From: a virus
DNA length: 64,000 nucleotides
Reading direction: 5' to 3' (one strand)
Virus record (IMG/VR): IMGVR_UViG_3300027896_000014
Coordinates: 62,001-126,000 of that record
The notes under the pieces are model-generated. The model saw only the letters and a program-made list of their open reading frames with translations, was not told where the DNA came from and did not search any database. This document shows positions 9,600 through 55,973 of this stretch, one piece after another. Both the position numbers and the translations under genes were made by a program. Numbering within the stretch: position 1 is the stretch's first letter; every line of letters starts with the position of its first letter.

Positions 9600-9869
9600 A
9601 TGGAAACTACAATCTGGATCTGCACTGGAATTATAGTGATTTCAATTGTTGCTGGATTCCACGCAATCGGGAAAGATATTGTTAACTTACATATTATTCT
9701 CGACAACTATTTTAACCATATAGAGAAAATATTGGAAGAAATTCGTAAAAGCAAAAAGGAAGTATTAAACGTTCCCCCTGAAACGATTGGTGAAATTGTC
9801 CAAGAAGACTACAGAAGGGAAAAACTCCTTAAAGAGTCAGAAGAAATCCGTAAACAAGAGTTGAAGTAA
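9600..9869 (+). CDS. Membrane-anchored coiled-coil protein
   Basis: 89 aa starting METTIWICTGIIVISIVAGF, one N-terminal membrane helix followed by a charged helix (DNYFNHIEKILEEIRKSKKEV). It starts directly after the stop of the HTH gene. A diverged copy of its N-terminal half, lacking the ATG, is found at 54743-54901. Function unknown; the position in the immunity region suggests superinfection exclusion, as inference only. Confidence 0.65.
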   Translation: METTIWICTGIIVISIVAGFHAIGKDIVNLHIILDNYFNHIEKILEEIRKSKKEVLNVPPETIGEIVQEDYRREKLLKESEEIRKQELK

Positions 9870-47372: not shown

Positions 47373-48791
47373 CTAAAACCTAAAGTCGTCTCCCTTCATG
47401 GCATTCACTTCTTTGATAATTTGAAGCACGTCCGTCTCGAACTTTGCAGGAAAGGAGCTATTGGCCATTTCGATCTGGGAAGCAATCTTACTGGCCGCAT
47501 CTACTGCGGCTTTCGGAGTTTTCCCGTATCCCATCGCCGTCGCTACGACGTGATCACCCGGATCGAACCAATGGTCTCCTGCCTTTTGTACGATACGCCT
47601 GAATCCCATGTCTTTTCTTATTTCTTTCGGGAAATGAATCACTTCCCACGTCTTAATGTCATCGGTATAAACTCCGACCTGGGTGACATAGCCGGGCTCC
47701 ACTTCCGCTCGGACGTTCTGACCGGCCGCAATCTTATAGGTATATTCTGGAAAGTTCTTTATGTATCTTGACTGAATCGCACCGCAGGGCCAGGCATCAC
47801 GAGACGTTGGATCGTGGACTCTAACTTTCTTTCCGTCCCAAAAGAACTCAAAGCTGATATTGCCGTGATAACCGGATTTGATGAGAGAAGGCTTTATTTT
47901 GTTTAGGATATGCTCATCGATCCCATTCTCCTCCACCCAAACTCCGATTGTTCCCTCTCCTTTCACTTCTATCGTGTAGAGGAAAGGCCGGATATAATCC
48001 CTTCCATTGAAACCGACATCGACACCCAATTCTTTGCCTGGGCATGATCGCTGAATCAAAATCTCAAGGTCCTCACGGAATGGCCCAAAACCGGCCTGTT
48101 CGAGCGCCACGGCCATCTGTACTCGATTTTTCACGCCCTTCCCTGTCTCTTTATTGCCTCTATACTCTCCAACTTTTGGGAAGAAGAGAGTCTTGCCATC
48201 GGTGTGTTTATCCATGTACTCAAAAGCCTCATCAAAACCATGGACAACATCTCCATCGGGGACGCCGACGCCCATCTCTTGAAGCCGCTGCCATCCCTTC
48301 ACACGGTTATTTTCATTCTCGGTCCACCAGAAGGAAGGACCATAAACGATTTTCCCCTCATCACGCCAGATATCGGCATCCTTCCCGAAACAACAATCCG
48401 AGATATAAATAAAATCCTTTTGGGCAGCTTCCATCATGCTGTGGATCTTGTGAAGCCCCTTAAAGCCATATCCCGAGATTTGGTTCTCGATCGACGGGTA
48501 GGCTGCGGCACCGGCAATAAAGTAATACACTTCAAACTCCCTCATGAGTGCCAGGGCGTGATCAATCCCTAAATTGGTGTCGATGAAGCCAACGGTCCGT
48601 GGCATTCCATGTTCCCGCTTAGGCATAGAAATAGCCTTGGTCGCTTTTGCCGTCTGATAATTGGCGATTTCTGCATAGGAATATCCCTCTTTGTGTGCCT
48701 CTTCGACCTTAAAACCCGTAAATCCAGCGAGATAAAAGGCTATCTCCCGGTATGAATGACCCTCTTTTCTTTGGGCCTCGACATCGTACAT
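47373..48791 (-). CDS. ATP-grasp (PurD/GARS-like) protein in the head operon
   Basis: 472 aa. Residues 1-45 hold two copies of the short motif EGHSYREIAFYLAGF / EGYSYAEIANYQ. Residues ~65-470 follow the ATP-grasp order: nucleotide-fold N-terminus (TVGFIDTNLGIDHALALMRE), ATP-binding lobe (KTLFFPKVGEYRGNKETGKG), Glu/Asn metal ligand region (NISFEFFWDGKKVRVHDPTS), and a GARS-type C-domain (VVATAMGYGKTPKAAVDAA). ATP-grasp enzymes join a carboxylate to an amine with ATP. Overlap with the portal gene by one base ties it to head assembly, possibly modifying a virion component. Substrate unknown. Confidence 0.7.
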   Translation of the reverse strand: MYDVEAQRKEGHSYREIAFYLAGFTGFKVEEAHKEGYSYAEIANYQTAKATKAISMPKREHGMPRTVGFIDTNLGIDHALALMREFEVYYFIAGAAAYPSIENQISGYGFKGLHKIHSMMEAAQKDFIYISDCCFGKDADIWRDEGKIVYGPSFWWTENENNRVKGWQRLQEMGVGVPDGDVVHGFDEAFEYMDKHTDGKTLFFPKVGEYRGNKETGKGVKNRVQMAVALEQAGFGPFREDLEILIQRSCPGKELGVDVGFNGRDYIRPFLYTIEVKGEGTIGVWVEENGIDEHILNKIKPSLIKSGYHGNISFEFFWDGKKVRVHDPTSRDAWPCGAIQSRYIKNFPEYTYKIAAGQNVRAEVEPGYVTQVGVYTDDIKTWEVIHFPKEIRKDMGFRRIVQKAGDHWFDPGDHVVATAMGYGKTPKAAVDAASKIASQIEMANSSFPAKFETDVLQIIKEVNAMKGDDFRF

Positions 48792-50599
48792 TATTGTCCC
48801 TCAAATGCGGAAAGGGGTCTACGCGTAGGTTCCCCTTCACCGGGGGCCAAAGCCCCGGGAACCAAACCAGCTCCACCGGCAGTCGGCGGAGGCGCCTGAT
48901 CAAGTGCCTCTGCCTGGTCATCCGTCATAATGAAGTCCGGGTCATGAAACCCGAACGCATTAACTTCGTGTTTTAGAAGCTTATACGGCTTAAAATACTT
49001 ACCGAATGTGGAGCTTTCTGCCTGCTTAAGAAAGGCTTGATACATTTGAATAAGCTGACTATTCTTGATTGCGGCAGATATCCCCATGATCTTAATATCG
49101 CAATTGGCCTTCAACATCTCCTTGCGTTGTTCAATGGACATCTGAGCGAACTTTTGAGCATTCGGATTGTTTTTCATAACACGGGAAATACTGGGATCTG
49201 AGTATTCATTCCAGTTCAGGACCACTACCTCTAAAGCAGCTCTAATCGTATTGACCGCACCTTCTTCTATATCCTCACCTATTGAATCGAAGACTGTCAT
49301 GGACTGACCGAGCAATATCTCAGCCTCTCCCTTTGTTTTTTGGCTTTTAGTTCCACGTTGGCCAGCTGCTAATTGAGTAAGCATTGAGGAAGCTTCCCGG
49401 CGTTGGTCCCAGTGTTGAAGCGTGGCCAGCGTTTCGTTGCTTGAGGGACTCGTGTAAACCTCCTTAACCACCGGTTGGCCAGGTGGCGCATCTTGCCTAC
49501 GAAAGACCGTCTTACCAGGAAACATGGCAACATCCGTAGGGTCCTCGAGATCCATCCGGTTTAGTTCTCGAAGTTTATTGACCCGCCACGAGAGATCGTC
49601 GATATGGAGGCTCATTAAGTTGCAGCTATTAAGCCACAGAAGAAGAGAGGTCTCAATAACTCCGTGTCCCTCAAACGTAAATAAATCTGGAAGGGGGGAA
49701 AAAGATATGCCTGGCCATCGCATCGTCACGAAAGGATTTGGTTCAGGATTTCGGATCAAAACATCTCCTGCCACGGTAAACCTGGCATTATCGAGGAGAA
49801 GTTCTCCCGATTTATCCAAAATAACGCCCCAATGCTCGATCAACCTCACGGCTTTTCTAAAACTGCTTCGTTGATAATATTGACCTTTCCTGCGGGCCCG
49901 TTTTTCCGCAGTTTCCTGGCCCCAGCTCGATTCATTGGCCGTGACCTCATTCAACCTCACATACCGTCCACCGAGTTTTTTGACCTTCCATAAATCAAGC
50001 CACTCCACATGATCCCAGTAATCTCCCGACCATGGCTCCCGTGGCGATGCATCCGAATCCCGATAGATCTGCCATGGAGGAACGAGAGAAAAAACCAACC
50101 CCTTTCCTGGAACCCACCTCGGAATCATCTCATGGGATTGACCGATCGCAAAACCGAGTTCTGTTCCATCAGAAAACGCAGTATCTAGGTGGGCGTGTTG
50201 AGGATTGAACCAAAACTCAGAAGCATCTCTAAGGAAAGAGGCAATCCATTTTTCATTCTCATCATCTGGATTCACCGCCTCGATTTTATACCAATCTGGC
50301 TGGCGAAGTGCTTTTCGGATAATCGCCACTCCCTGTTTAACCGTGGAGGTCATATCCCCAGTTGTCATTTTGGCCTGCCAATCTTCTTTCTCCGAATAAT
50401 CAATATCTGCCTTGTAAGCCCTATAGCACTGATCCCAGAGATATCTAACTTCTAAGTTGGCTTGCTCTGACTCCGTAATGCAGCTATGAGCGAAGTCAAC
50501 AAATGTGTCAGGATCTTCGACACCATAAGCCGATGCTGCCTCTTCACGTTCCGCCAGCTCTTGATCATCCCACCCCTGGGTCCCTGCATCATTCGCCAT
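48791..50599 (-). CDS. Portal protein
   Basis: 602 aa. Acidic N-terminus, then the crown/wing core (KADIDYSEKEDWQAKMTTGD, SLVPPWQIYRDSDASPREPW) and the stem/clip helices (RREASSMLTQLAAGQRGTKS, KGEAEILLGQSMTVFDSIGE) of podovirus-type head-tail connectors. The C-terminus is low-complexity and ends RRPLSAFEGQ, matching the PLSAF motif of the small basic proteins at 44-45 kb. A TACGCA palindrome (50610-50623) and terminator (50632-50679) lie just upstream. Confidence 0.88.
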   Translation of the reverse strand: MANDAGTQGWDDQELAEREEAASAYGVEDPDTFVDFAHSCITESEQANLEVRYLWDQCYRAYKADIDYSEKEDWQAKMTTGDMTSTVKQGVAIIRKALRQPDWYKIEAVNPDDENEKWIASFLRDASEFWFNPQHAHLDTAFSDGTELGFAIGQSHEMIPRWVPGKGLVFSLVPPWQIYRDSDASPREPWSGDYWDHVEWLDLWKVKKLGGRYVRLNEVTANESSWGQETAEKRARRKGQYYQRSSFRKAVRLIEHWGVILDKSGELLLDNARFTVAGDVLIRNPEPNPFVTMRWPGISFSPLPDLFTFEGHGVIETSLLLWLNSCNLMSLHIDDLSWRVNKLRELNRMDLEDPTDVAMFPGKTVFRRQDAPPGQPVVKEVYTSPSSNETLATLQHWDQRREASSMLTQLAAGQRGTKSQKTKGEAEILLGQSMTVFDSIGEDIEEGAVNTIRAALEVVVLNWNEYSDPSISRVMKNNPNAQKFAQMSIEQRKEMLKANCDIKIMGISAAIKNSQLIQMYQAFLKQAESSTFGKYFKPYKLLKHEVNAFGFHDPDFIMTDDQAEALDQAPPPTAGGAGLVPGALAPGEGEPTRRPLSAFEGQ

Positions 50600-54267: not shown

Positions 54268-54447
54268 CTACTCCTCCAAATATTTTAATGCTCTATCAAT
54301 TTTATTTCTTTGATTTTCAACATATCCAACAATCCTATTGCATTGTGCATGTAAAAGCCCCCTGACTCTTCCAGTTATATGGTCATGATCTATGTGAGTC
54401 GAACGGTCTGTCGTAAGTTCTTTATCGCAGATAGGACATAAATTCTT
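54268..54447 (-). pseudogene. Endonuclease VII-like gene, 3' fragment
   Basis: A 59-residue open frame without start codon, reading KNLCPICDKELTTDRSTHID, then HDHITGRVRGLLHAQCNRIV. It has the CxxC, DHDH and RGLLxxxCN motifs of recombination endonuclease VII (Holliday-junction-cleaving or homing-type nuclease). A TGA lies just upstream. The missing 5' part is found about 1.3 kb away at 55779-55973; joined, they make one ~122-aa enzyme. Confidence 0.8.
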
Positions 54448-54539
54448 TCAGAAATCCATCGATGCCCTTGCCAAAGCGATAAGAGATTTGAGAAGTATCT
54501 TAGAGGTTATTTCAACCAACCTCCAGCACGTCTCTGGGG

Positions 54540-54704
54540 CTATCGATCGCTCTTCTGGTTCAAAGAAAGAGTAAGGCGCAAAAAAACCGCATCTATCAGA
54601 TCTAATGTCCCATGAAGGATCTCATATGCATCTTTGGCGTTCATCCCATCGAAAAGGGGGGCCAGCTTGTTCTTGATGAAAGCAATTCTTTGTTTGTCTG
54701 TCAT
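54540..54704 (-). CDS. 54-aa helical hypothetical protein within the insertion
   Basis: Starts MTDKQRIAFIKNKLAPLFDG, with AAAGGAG before the ATG. Two helices (AYEILHGTLDLIDAVFLRLT). It lies between the two parts of the endonuclease VII gene, so it belongs to the inserted segment. A headless plus-strand frame (54446-54575, QKSIDALAKAIRDLRSILEV) overlaps its 3' end and is probably a remnant. Confidence 0.55.
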   Translation of the reverse strand: MTDKQRIAFIKNKLAPLFDGMNAKDAYEILHGTLDLIDAVFLRLTLSLNQKSDR

Positions 54705-54742
54705 AATTTTTCTCCTTTCAGAAGATTGAGAAGGTGTAAAAC

Positions 54743-54901
54743 ATAGAAACTACAATCTGGATCTGCACGGCAATTATTTGCACTGTCATTGGCTTTTTAG
54801 CTTACGCAGTAGTCGGTGATATCACTAAAGCCCTGCGTCGTATCGAAATAGTGTTGGACGAAATCCTCAAAAATATGATGGATAAGAGATCTCGCATATG
54901 A
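54743..54901 (+). pseudogene. Diverged copy of the 9600 membrane protein, lacking an ATG
   Basis: The frame reads ETTIWICTAIICTVIGFLAY and so on for 52 codons, closely matching METTIWICTGIIVISIVAGF at 9600. DNA identity is high over GAAACTACAATCTGGATCTG. The start codon is ATA and a stop lies two codons before it, so it is either inactive or uses a rare ATA start. It opposes its neighbours inside the insertion. Confidence 0.7.
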
Positions 54902-54917
54902 AGATCCTACACACTTT

Positions 54918-55655
54918 CTATCTCCTTTTTTTAAGTCTGGCTATAAATTGATTTAAAAATTTTCGATCAATTTCAAGAGTTCTTGATTTAATGTTTGAGA
55001 GATAAATGTCCGCCGCATTCCACATCTGAATTCTGGAAGAGGCTCCACGGCGAATCCATGAAGCATACATATCGGCGGCTTGTAACGGAGGAAATTGTTT
55101 GTCATCCCAATGATCACATTTTCCAAGTCTTGGGAGGTCTGGTAGTTGCGATTTTATATAGTCATCAAAGATAATCCTAAACCGTCTTCCAACTTTTCCC
55201 TGTTCATCGAAAATAAAATCTATCGGATTGGCTCTCTTACCTATTCCTGGAAATAAAAACACACATTGAAAACACACCCAAGCAACAACCAAAGCTGCAC
55301 ATATAAAATAAGGATCATTGGACGGGAAGAGAGAATTAAAAGAGTAAAATTCCTTGATTATCTTAAGATCACTTTTTGAGAGATATGCCGCAATACCATA
55401 GCAGTTTTCAGTTGGAATAACGCTTGCCAGCTTAGCAATTTTTTGATTTCTAACATCCCGGTCAAAATTTGAAAAGCATCGTTTTAGTCCAATCGCATCA
55501 TTGGTTCTATAGTATCCAATAACTGGAGGCTCCTTACATACATTAACCCAATCAGAAGAAAACTTGTCCCATACTATAATCGGTGCTATGAAACCACCCA
55601 AGACGAAGGTGCTTTCGTCTCCGCTATCATCTATGACAGCTTTGAGGGTTATCAT
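54918..55655 (-). CDS. DUF3800 protein (RNase H-like predicted nuclease) in the insertion
   Basis: 246 aa from MITLKAVIDDSGDESTFVLG, with GGGAGA five bases before the ATG. DUF3800 signatures: the IDDSGDES opening, a W..F..DW segment, FIFDEQGKVG near residue 170, and PPLQAADMYASWIRR near 210. The family is predicted to have an RNase H-like fold and often occurs in phage and defence islands. The reading frame continues upstream into the endonuclease VII 5' part, so a longer fusion could be made, but the internal start fits the family. Confidence 0.75.
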   Translation of the reverse strand: MITLKAVIDDSGDESTFVLGGFIAPIIVWDKFSSDWVNVCKEPPVIGYYRTNDAIGLKRCFSNFDRDVRNQKIAKLASVIPTENCYGIAAYLSKSDLKIIKEFYSFNSLFPSNDPYFICAALVVAWVCFQCVFLFPGIGKRANPIDFIFDEQGKVGRRFRIIFDDYIKSQLPDLPRLGKCDHWDDKQFPPLQAADMYASWIRRGASSRIQMWNAADIYLSNIKSRTLEIDRKFLNQFIARLKKRR

Positions 55656-55778
55656 TAATCTCCCATTTTTATATTCGGGAGCCAGTCCGCAATAATACCG
55701 TTGTATGCAGATCGCAGCAAGCTCTAACTGATCGAGTATACTCCTTTTCTTGCTGCTTTGTAAAGTTAATAATTCCGA

Positions 55779-55973
55779 ATTCTTTTGTGAAAGTCTAAGC
55801 TCTCCCAAACTTTCGAAGGTCAGCCCATATCTTTTTTTGAGTATATGTCTTCTCCGTAAAAGACGCCATCGGTCTGGATTCTTTTCTCTCCACTTTTTCT
55901 CCGCTAAGTACGCTTGAGCTTTATGGTTTTGTTTATACTTACGAGATGCTCTGCGAGCTGATTCCTTGCTCAT
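55779..55973 (-). pseudogene. Endonuclease VII-like gene, 5' fragment
   Basis: The first 65 codons of the open frame, MSKESARRASRKYKQNHKAQ, then WREKNPDRWRLLRRRHILKK, then RYGLTFESLGELRLSQKN, are the usual Lys/Arg-rich N-terminus of endonuclease VII homologues ('kk..R..NP.......KYGlt.e'). Downstream the frame enters unrelated DUF3800-side sequence. It shares the 8 bp AATTCTTT (55778-55785) with the other end of the break at 54441-54448. Confidence 0.75.

Follow-up and report, generated by a model that had tools for sequence, protein, structure and literature searches.

Comparison with the uninterrupted site in a sister phage shows that an intact phage endonuclease VII gene received a 1,329-bp insertion with a DUF3800 gene on it, and that 8 bp of the target were duplicated. 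We explain this segment best as a non-autonomous or one-ended derivative of an IS1595-family transposon with DUF3800 as its passenger, a reading to which we give slightly better than even odds (probability roughly 0.55). Better supported than the placement of this particular copy is the broader result that DUF3800 is a recurrent passenger of IS1595-family transposons. This link appears to be new, as no paper naming both DUF3800 and IS1595 was found in the literature searched, mostly non-subscription journals and without ISfinder.

The interrupted endonuclease VII gene and its empty site

The features of the disrupted locus in the window (the whole 64,000-nt stretch of DNA analysed here) are:

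55779..55973, minus strand: 5' third of endonuclease VII, 65 codons, in frame with DUF3800; 92% identical to L002 residues 1-65
54268..54447, minus strand: 3' part of endonuclease VII, zinc/HNH catalytic region; Pfam PF02945, E 7e-16
55778..55785: copy 1 of the 8-bp direct repeat (AATTCTTT on the plus strand), target duplication
54441..54448: copy 2 of the 8-bp direct repeat, target duplication
54449..55777: insert, 1,329 bp from repeat to repeat; missing from the syntenic L027 site, single-copy in the 145-kb record

The sister phage, represented by contig IMGVR_UViG_3300038426_000075 (loci L002, L004, L007 and L027), is 93% identical to the window phage across the 602-aa protein encoded at window 48791-50599. 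Its site is intact, with an uninterrupted 125-aa endonuclease VII lying between the same neighbours as in the window, a 67-aa gene before it and a small gene and a DUF3307 gene after it. In DNA alignments, L027 6450-6876 matches window 56204-55778 and L027 6873-7227 matches window 54444-54105, the two blocks being collinear and adjacent; the window thus has 1,337 bp of extra DNA relative to the sister site, consisting of 1,329 bp and one copy of AAAGAATT. The original prediction, that the two pieces fit together into one normal protein between 8-bp repeats and that an intact version might be found at this site in a related phage, is borne out by this comparison, while its suggestion that the same segment be sought elsewhere yielded no second copy in the 145-kb record. 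Both pieces taken together form a normal member of the phage endonuclease VII family (PF02945; PHROG 2914), from which the window gene differs in being interrupted before the catalytic region.

The AATTCTTT copies are exact at both borders of the segment. Matches of at least 8 bp between two random breakpoints in the window occur at a frequency of 1.9e-4, or 4.3e-4 between AT-rich breakpoints, and the 8-bp match therefore exceeds chance (~2-4 in 10,000). An assembly artefact joining two sequences is exceedingly unlikely: the contig is metagenomic and the arrangement a single observation, but such a join would not be expected to give an exact 8-bp duplication with the frame precisely restored, and part of the segment is related in sequence to this phage lineage.

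The blocks flanking the segment are 82.9% (upstream) and 85.5% (downstream) identical to L027, whereas the endonuclease VII pieces differ from the intact sister gene at only 11 of 195 nt in the 5' piece and 8 of 180 nt in the 3' piece. As the pieces have diverged less than the surrounding blocks, the insertion looks recent. These small differences would also suit a self-splicing intron whose removal from the mRNA would leave endonuclease VII intact, as would the last 136 nt of the segment, which fold better than shuffled sequences (z -2.95). However, no Rfam match was obtained at E-values up to 10, under settings like those that gave E 2.4e-8 for the T4 td intron control, and no exact join of the two pieces fits the splice-site rules of group I or group II introns, making this explanation very improbable. 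A group I intron, suggested by CAGAGAC...AAGAUA stretches within these 136 nt that are like R and S of that class, was rejected on these grounds, and neither a catalytic core nor splice sites of a group I or II intron were found in the segment.

The 5' piece comprises the helical N-terminal part of endonuclease VII, without the catalytic residues. The catalytic region is split off from it rather than intact in one frame, and the 3' part that contains it lies right behind an in-frame TGA and contains no start codon, for which reason it is predicted to be untranslatable alone. Judged from its reading frames, the endonuclease VII is broken, and its catalytic half would not be translated in the ordinary way.

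The surroundings of the gene vary among relatives. A different and distant DUF3800-like gene (L002 1217-2200) lies ~0.8 kb upstream of the intact endonuclease VII in the sister phage, where its neighbours include a METTIW and an HNH gene, and no element-like ends were found around it. In another relative, a DNA methylase gene (N6_N4_Mtase; L028 3427-4707) replaces endonuclease VII between the same neighbours.

The DUF3800 gene and its reading frame

The DUF3800 gene lies on the same strand as the endonuclease VII pieces, and the relevant features are:

54918..55655, minus strand: DUF3800 domain, 245 aa from the internal ATG, RNase-H fold; Pfam PF12686, alignments, AlphaFold
55659..55691, minus strand: N-terminal extension motif CGLAPEYKNGR of DUF3800, upstream of the insert's first in-frame ATG; same spacing in 13 homologues
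54918..55973, minus strand: 351-aa open frame running from endonuclease VII into DUF3800; codon 107 is the first canonical start after the junction

The match to PF12686 (E 1.7e-6) scored 29.2 bits, above the curated cut-off of 21, and alignments show that the conserved acidic residues D9/D10, D150 and D195 are kept in the window, which together place the protein in DUF3800. The AlphaFold model has a confident RNase-H core (pLDDT over 90), whose best match among solved structures is class II RNase H (RNase HII; E 1.2e-4) and among viral ones a phage DUF3800 protein (E 1.2e-10). Plasmids, bacterial genomes and a few phage contigs encode relatives at 25-30% identity, and the transposon-borne DUF3800 proteins described below are likewise only 25-30% identical to that of the window; no close relatives were found in viral contigs beyond the sister phage. 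DUF3800 proteins are accessory to CRISPR-Cas types V-A2 and VI-F (PMC10910872, PMC12669027). The window protein shares with these the Pfam domain and the RNase-H fold, but it lacks a TPR domain and no CRISPR genes or arrays were seen beside it. DUF3800-associated Rfam RNAs were absent from the segment and from the surroundings of 20 relatives, and PADLOC gave no match to known anti-phage defence families, leaving the earlier suggestion of a defence-type module without backing.

In most DUF3800 relatives, a motif of the form G-[YLV]-x4-R-x2-[RK] precedes the DDS residues by a constant distance, and the score of its window version, CGLAPEYKNGR, was equalled by only 3 of 73,657 background stretches. 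An untranslated leader was considered for this motif, since two loci have no upstream start, and was rejected in favour of coding sequence because five other loci have strong ribosome-binding sites and ATGs upstream and because synonymous variation is seen. The first in-frame ATG in the insert (55655), which follows directly after the motif, is preceded by a Shine-Dalgarno sequence, as the original prediction had claimed; being inside a stretch that is conserved upstream in homologues, however, this ATG is probably not the native start. No in-frame ATG, GTG or TTG occurs between the junction and this ATG (codon 107). With the motif upstream and no start codon before the ATG, DUF3800 appears to lack its native start, and the frame would now begin at the ATG of endonuclease VII. 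The predicted in-frame fusion was confirmed as a 351-aa open frame, and the candidate products may be a 351-aa protein from the fusion start or a 245-aa protein from the internal ATG.

The linker of the fusion, residues 55-107, has low prediction confidence, such as a disordered stretch would give. It is conceivable, although we consider it doubtful, that the fusion is a working chimeric nuclease, in which the N-terminal part of endonuclease VII would provide the translation start and a DNA-binding arm for a DUF3800 of RNase-H type, and a transposon passenger would have replaced the catalytic domain of a junction resolvase; in the broader form of this proposal, DUF3800 would be a nuclease that is carried as passenger and contributes to IS1595-type movement. 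As for the phage itself, the locus presents an otherwise intact endonuclease VII that appears to have been either destroyed or converted into a fusion recently.

Nuclease genes are known to split phage genes: nrdA of phage Aeh1 is interrupted by mobE and gene 60 of T4 by mobA, both through insertion of homing endonucleases (PMC2988022), and here too a nuclease-fold gene splits a phage enzyme gene. A similar event, in which the DUF3800 nuclease promoted its own insertion as has been proposed for mobE in Aeh1 nrdA, could draw on this precedent, on the predicted RNase-H nuclease fold and on the free-standing DUF3800 genes that adjoin terminase genes in two phage contigs. However, DUF3800 has no known homing activity, its homologues move as passengers of DDE transposons, which requires none, and the split endonuclease VII is not rescued because its 3' half has no start; we find such an event unlikely. 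The window also departs from the mobE and mobA insertions in having an RNase-H fold rather than HNH or GIY-YIG, an 8-bp duplication and an in-frame fusion, and, unlike the split nrdA of Aeh1, its endonuclease VII would yield no second polypeptide in the ordinary way, the 3' half being untranslatable.

DUF3800-carrying IS1595 transposons in bacteria

A 25-bp block recurs upstream of several bacterial DUF3800 genes. A promoter was considered for this block and rejected, as it forms inverted pairs and represents a transposon end. Such a pair surrounds DUF3800 in four genomes, with 2.0-2.35 kb between the two copies, and delimits the following elements:

L048 2881-5249: complete IS1595-family transposon, DUF3800 passenger
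L049 2832-5056: complete IS1595-family transposon, DUF3800 passenger
L051 2868-5009: complete IS1595-family transposon, DUF3800 passenger
L058 2871-4928: complete IS1595-family transposon, DUF3800 passenger

These elements are 2.06-2.37 kb in size and have inverted ends of ~25 bp (GGCGTTATTATACTTGACGTACCCA or CCCAATATTATACTTGACGTACCCA) that score 17-21 against each other, compared with 0-4 for unrelated pairs. In each, DUF3800 is followed by a convergent transposase gene. DDE_Tnp_IS1595 and a zinc ribbon were identified in L049 (E 1.6e-31) and L051 (E 1.3e-33), and the transposases of L048 and L058 are homologues, 55-57% identical. All four elements have exact 8-bp target duplications (TTGCCATC, ATTATTTT, TATTTATT and TTTTTCTT), 8 bp being usual for the IS1595 family (PMC8101967), and the ends, transposase and duplication together identify them as members of that family. 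The distance from the left end to the DDS codon is 141, 145, 154 or 181 nt. In the tree containing the window gene, those DUF3800 genes that have IS1595 ends are dispersed across the branches. That the IS1595 family includes elements with passenger genes is indicated by the title of a paper by Siguier, Gagnevin and Chandler (2009), cited in PMC7986276.

Traces of the association also occur in viral contigs. The right half of the same type of transposon (the end of DUF3800, the IS1595 transposase and the right end; L072 1-1490) adjoins phage genes in IMGVR_UViG_3300031825_000162, and in two phage contigs (L043 275-2368 and L044 3236-4780) a DUF3800 gene is located beside a terminase small-subunit gene, L044 keeping a left IS1595-type end. 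A common RNase-H-fold family of unknown function is thereby tied to a transposon family as its passenger, and carriage by IS1595 elements provides a concrete route for the spread of DUF3800 between bacteria and phages. The association raises the question of what reason a DDE transposon has for carrying a second protein of RNase-H fold.

Ends, contents and origin of the window segment

The remaining features of the insert are:

55756..55777, minus strand: left end CGGAATTATTAACTTTACAAAG, weakly like the IS1595-type end GGCGTTATTATACTTGACGTACCCA; P 0.002 (random positions) and 0.005 (shuffles)
55735..55764, minus strand: TTTACA-18-TATACT, promoter-like, directly adjoining the left end on its inner side; such sites are no more numerous in the region than by chance
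54743..54898, plus strand: start-less version, with ATA for ATG, of the small membrane-protein gene at 9600-9869; about 91-95% identity over the initial ~38 nt, diverged thereafter
54540..54704, minus strand: 54-aa ORF with a strong ribosome-binding site; no relatives found
54446..54574, plus strand: 42-aa open tail (FQKSIDAL...SKKE) running past the right end of the segment; no significant relatives

The segment has the 8-bp target duplication of the IS1595 family (AAAGAATT on both sides). Its two ends do not match each other, their inverted pairing having a score of 3 that is reached by 73% of random pairs, and the terminal inverted repeats for which the original prediction proposed a search are thus absent. 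No DDE_Tnp_IS1595 transposase, nor a recognisable remnant of one, was found in the insert or in the 145-kb record. By a strict test, the segment is not a member of the IS1595 family, but it works like one.

The derivation from an IS1595-family transposon is favoured because of the homologous DUF3800 passenger, the 8-bp duplication, the distance of 143 nt from the left end to the DUF3800 DDS codon (141-181 nt in the complete elements) and the left end itself, which weakly resembles the IS1595-type end (CGGAATTATTAACTTTAC resembles GGCGTTATTATACTTGAC; P 0.002-0.005). Counting against it are the weak match at the left end, with the IS1595 end consensus matched within 7 edits at three other places in the window, a right end that has no similarity to IS1595 ends (P 0.42), the missing transposase, the low identity (25-30%) of DUF3800 to its relatives and the single known copy. 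Compared with the complete elements, the segment is also shorter (1.33 kb versus 2.06-2.37 kb) and carries DNA of the phage lineage. The empty sister site, the duplication and the IS1595-borne homologues nevertheless agree with the small mobile module that had been proposed, and the contents listed for it, namely DUF3800, the 54-aa ORF and a 9600 gene copy without a start, are all present. In the history that we envisage, an IS1595-type element residing in a related phage would first have been stripped of its transposase and right end. What was left, a left end paired with a surrogate right end in phage DNA, would then have been moved into endonuclease VII by an IS1595-type transposase, either supplied in trans or working from a single end. 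Transposition would have duplicated 8 bp of the target and kept the left end and the DUF3800 passenger, with phage-type DNA as the right end, and would have left the first 65 codons of endonuclease VII fused in frame to a DUF3800 without its own start.

Alternatively, a stray piece of the accessory region of another phage may have been captured at a staggered double-strand break or through 8-bp microhomology, with no transposase involved and DUF3800 incidental, an origin that we regard as possible but tentative. The endonuclease VII locus is a hot spot for cargo or accessory genes, with the DUF3800-like and HNH genes of the sister phage nearby and a methylase in a further relative. A captured piece would account for a segment without inverted ends or transposase, for the start-less gene copy known only from this phage and its sister, and for the open tail cut at the right boundary. 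It would, however, leave the exact 8-bp duplication, the IS1595-like distance at the left boundary and the resemblance of the left end to a terminal inverted repeat as coincidences.

The right end of the segment (window 54440-54575, minus strand) forms a long hairpin that folds better than shuffles (z -2.95). The open tail that crosses this end is possibly the 3' end of a truncated gene. Codon usage did not separate coding from non-coding sequence among the small frames of the insert, and no relatives in viral contigs were found for the 54-aa ORF, or, beyond the sister phage, for the small membrane-protein gene. The latter (METTIWICTGII...) is represented by three copies, at window 9600-9640 and 54743-54782 and at L027 4401-4443, that share about 91-95% DNA identity over the first ~38 nt, synonymous sites included; past a sharp boundary at that point, their identity falls to 39-54% at the protein level.
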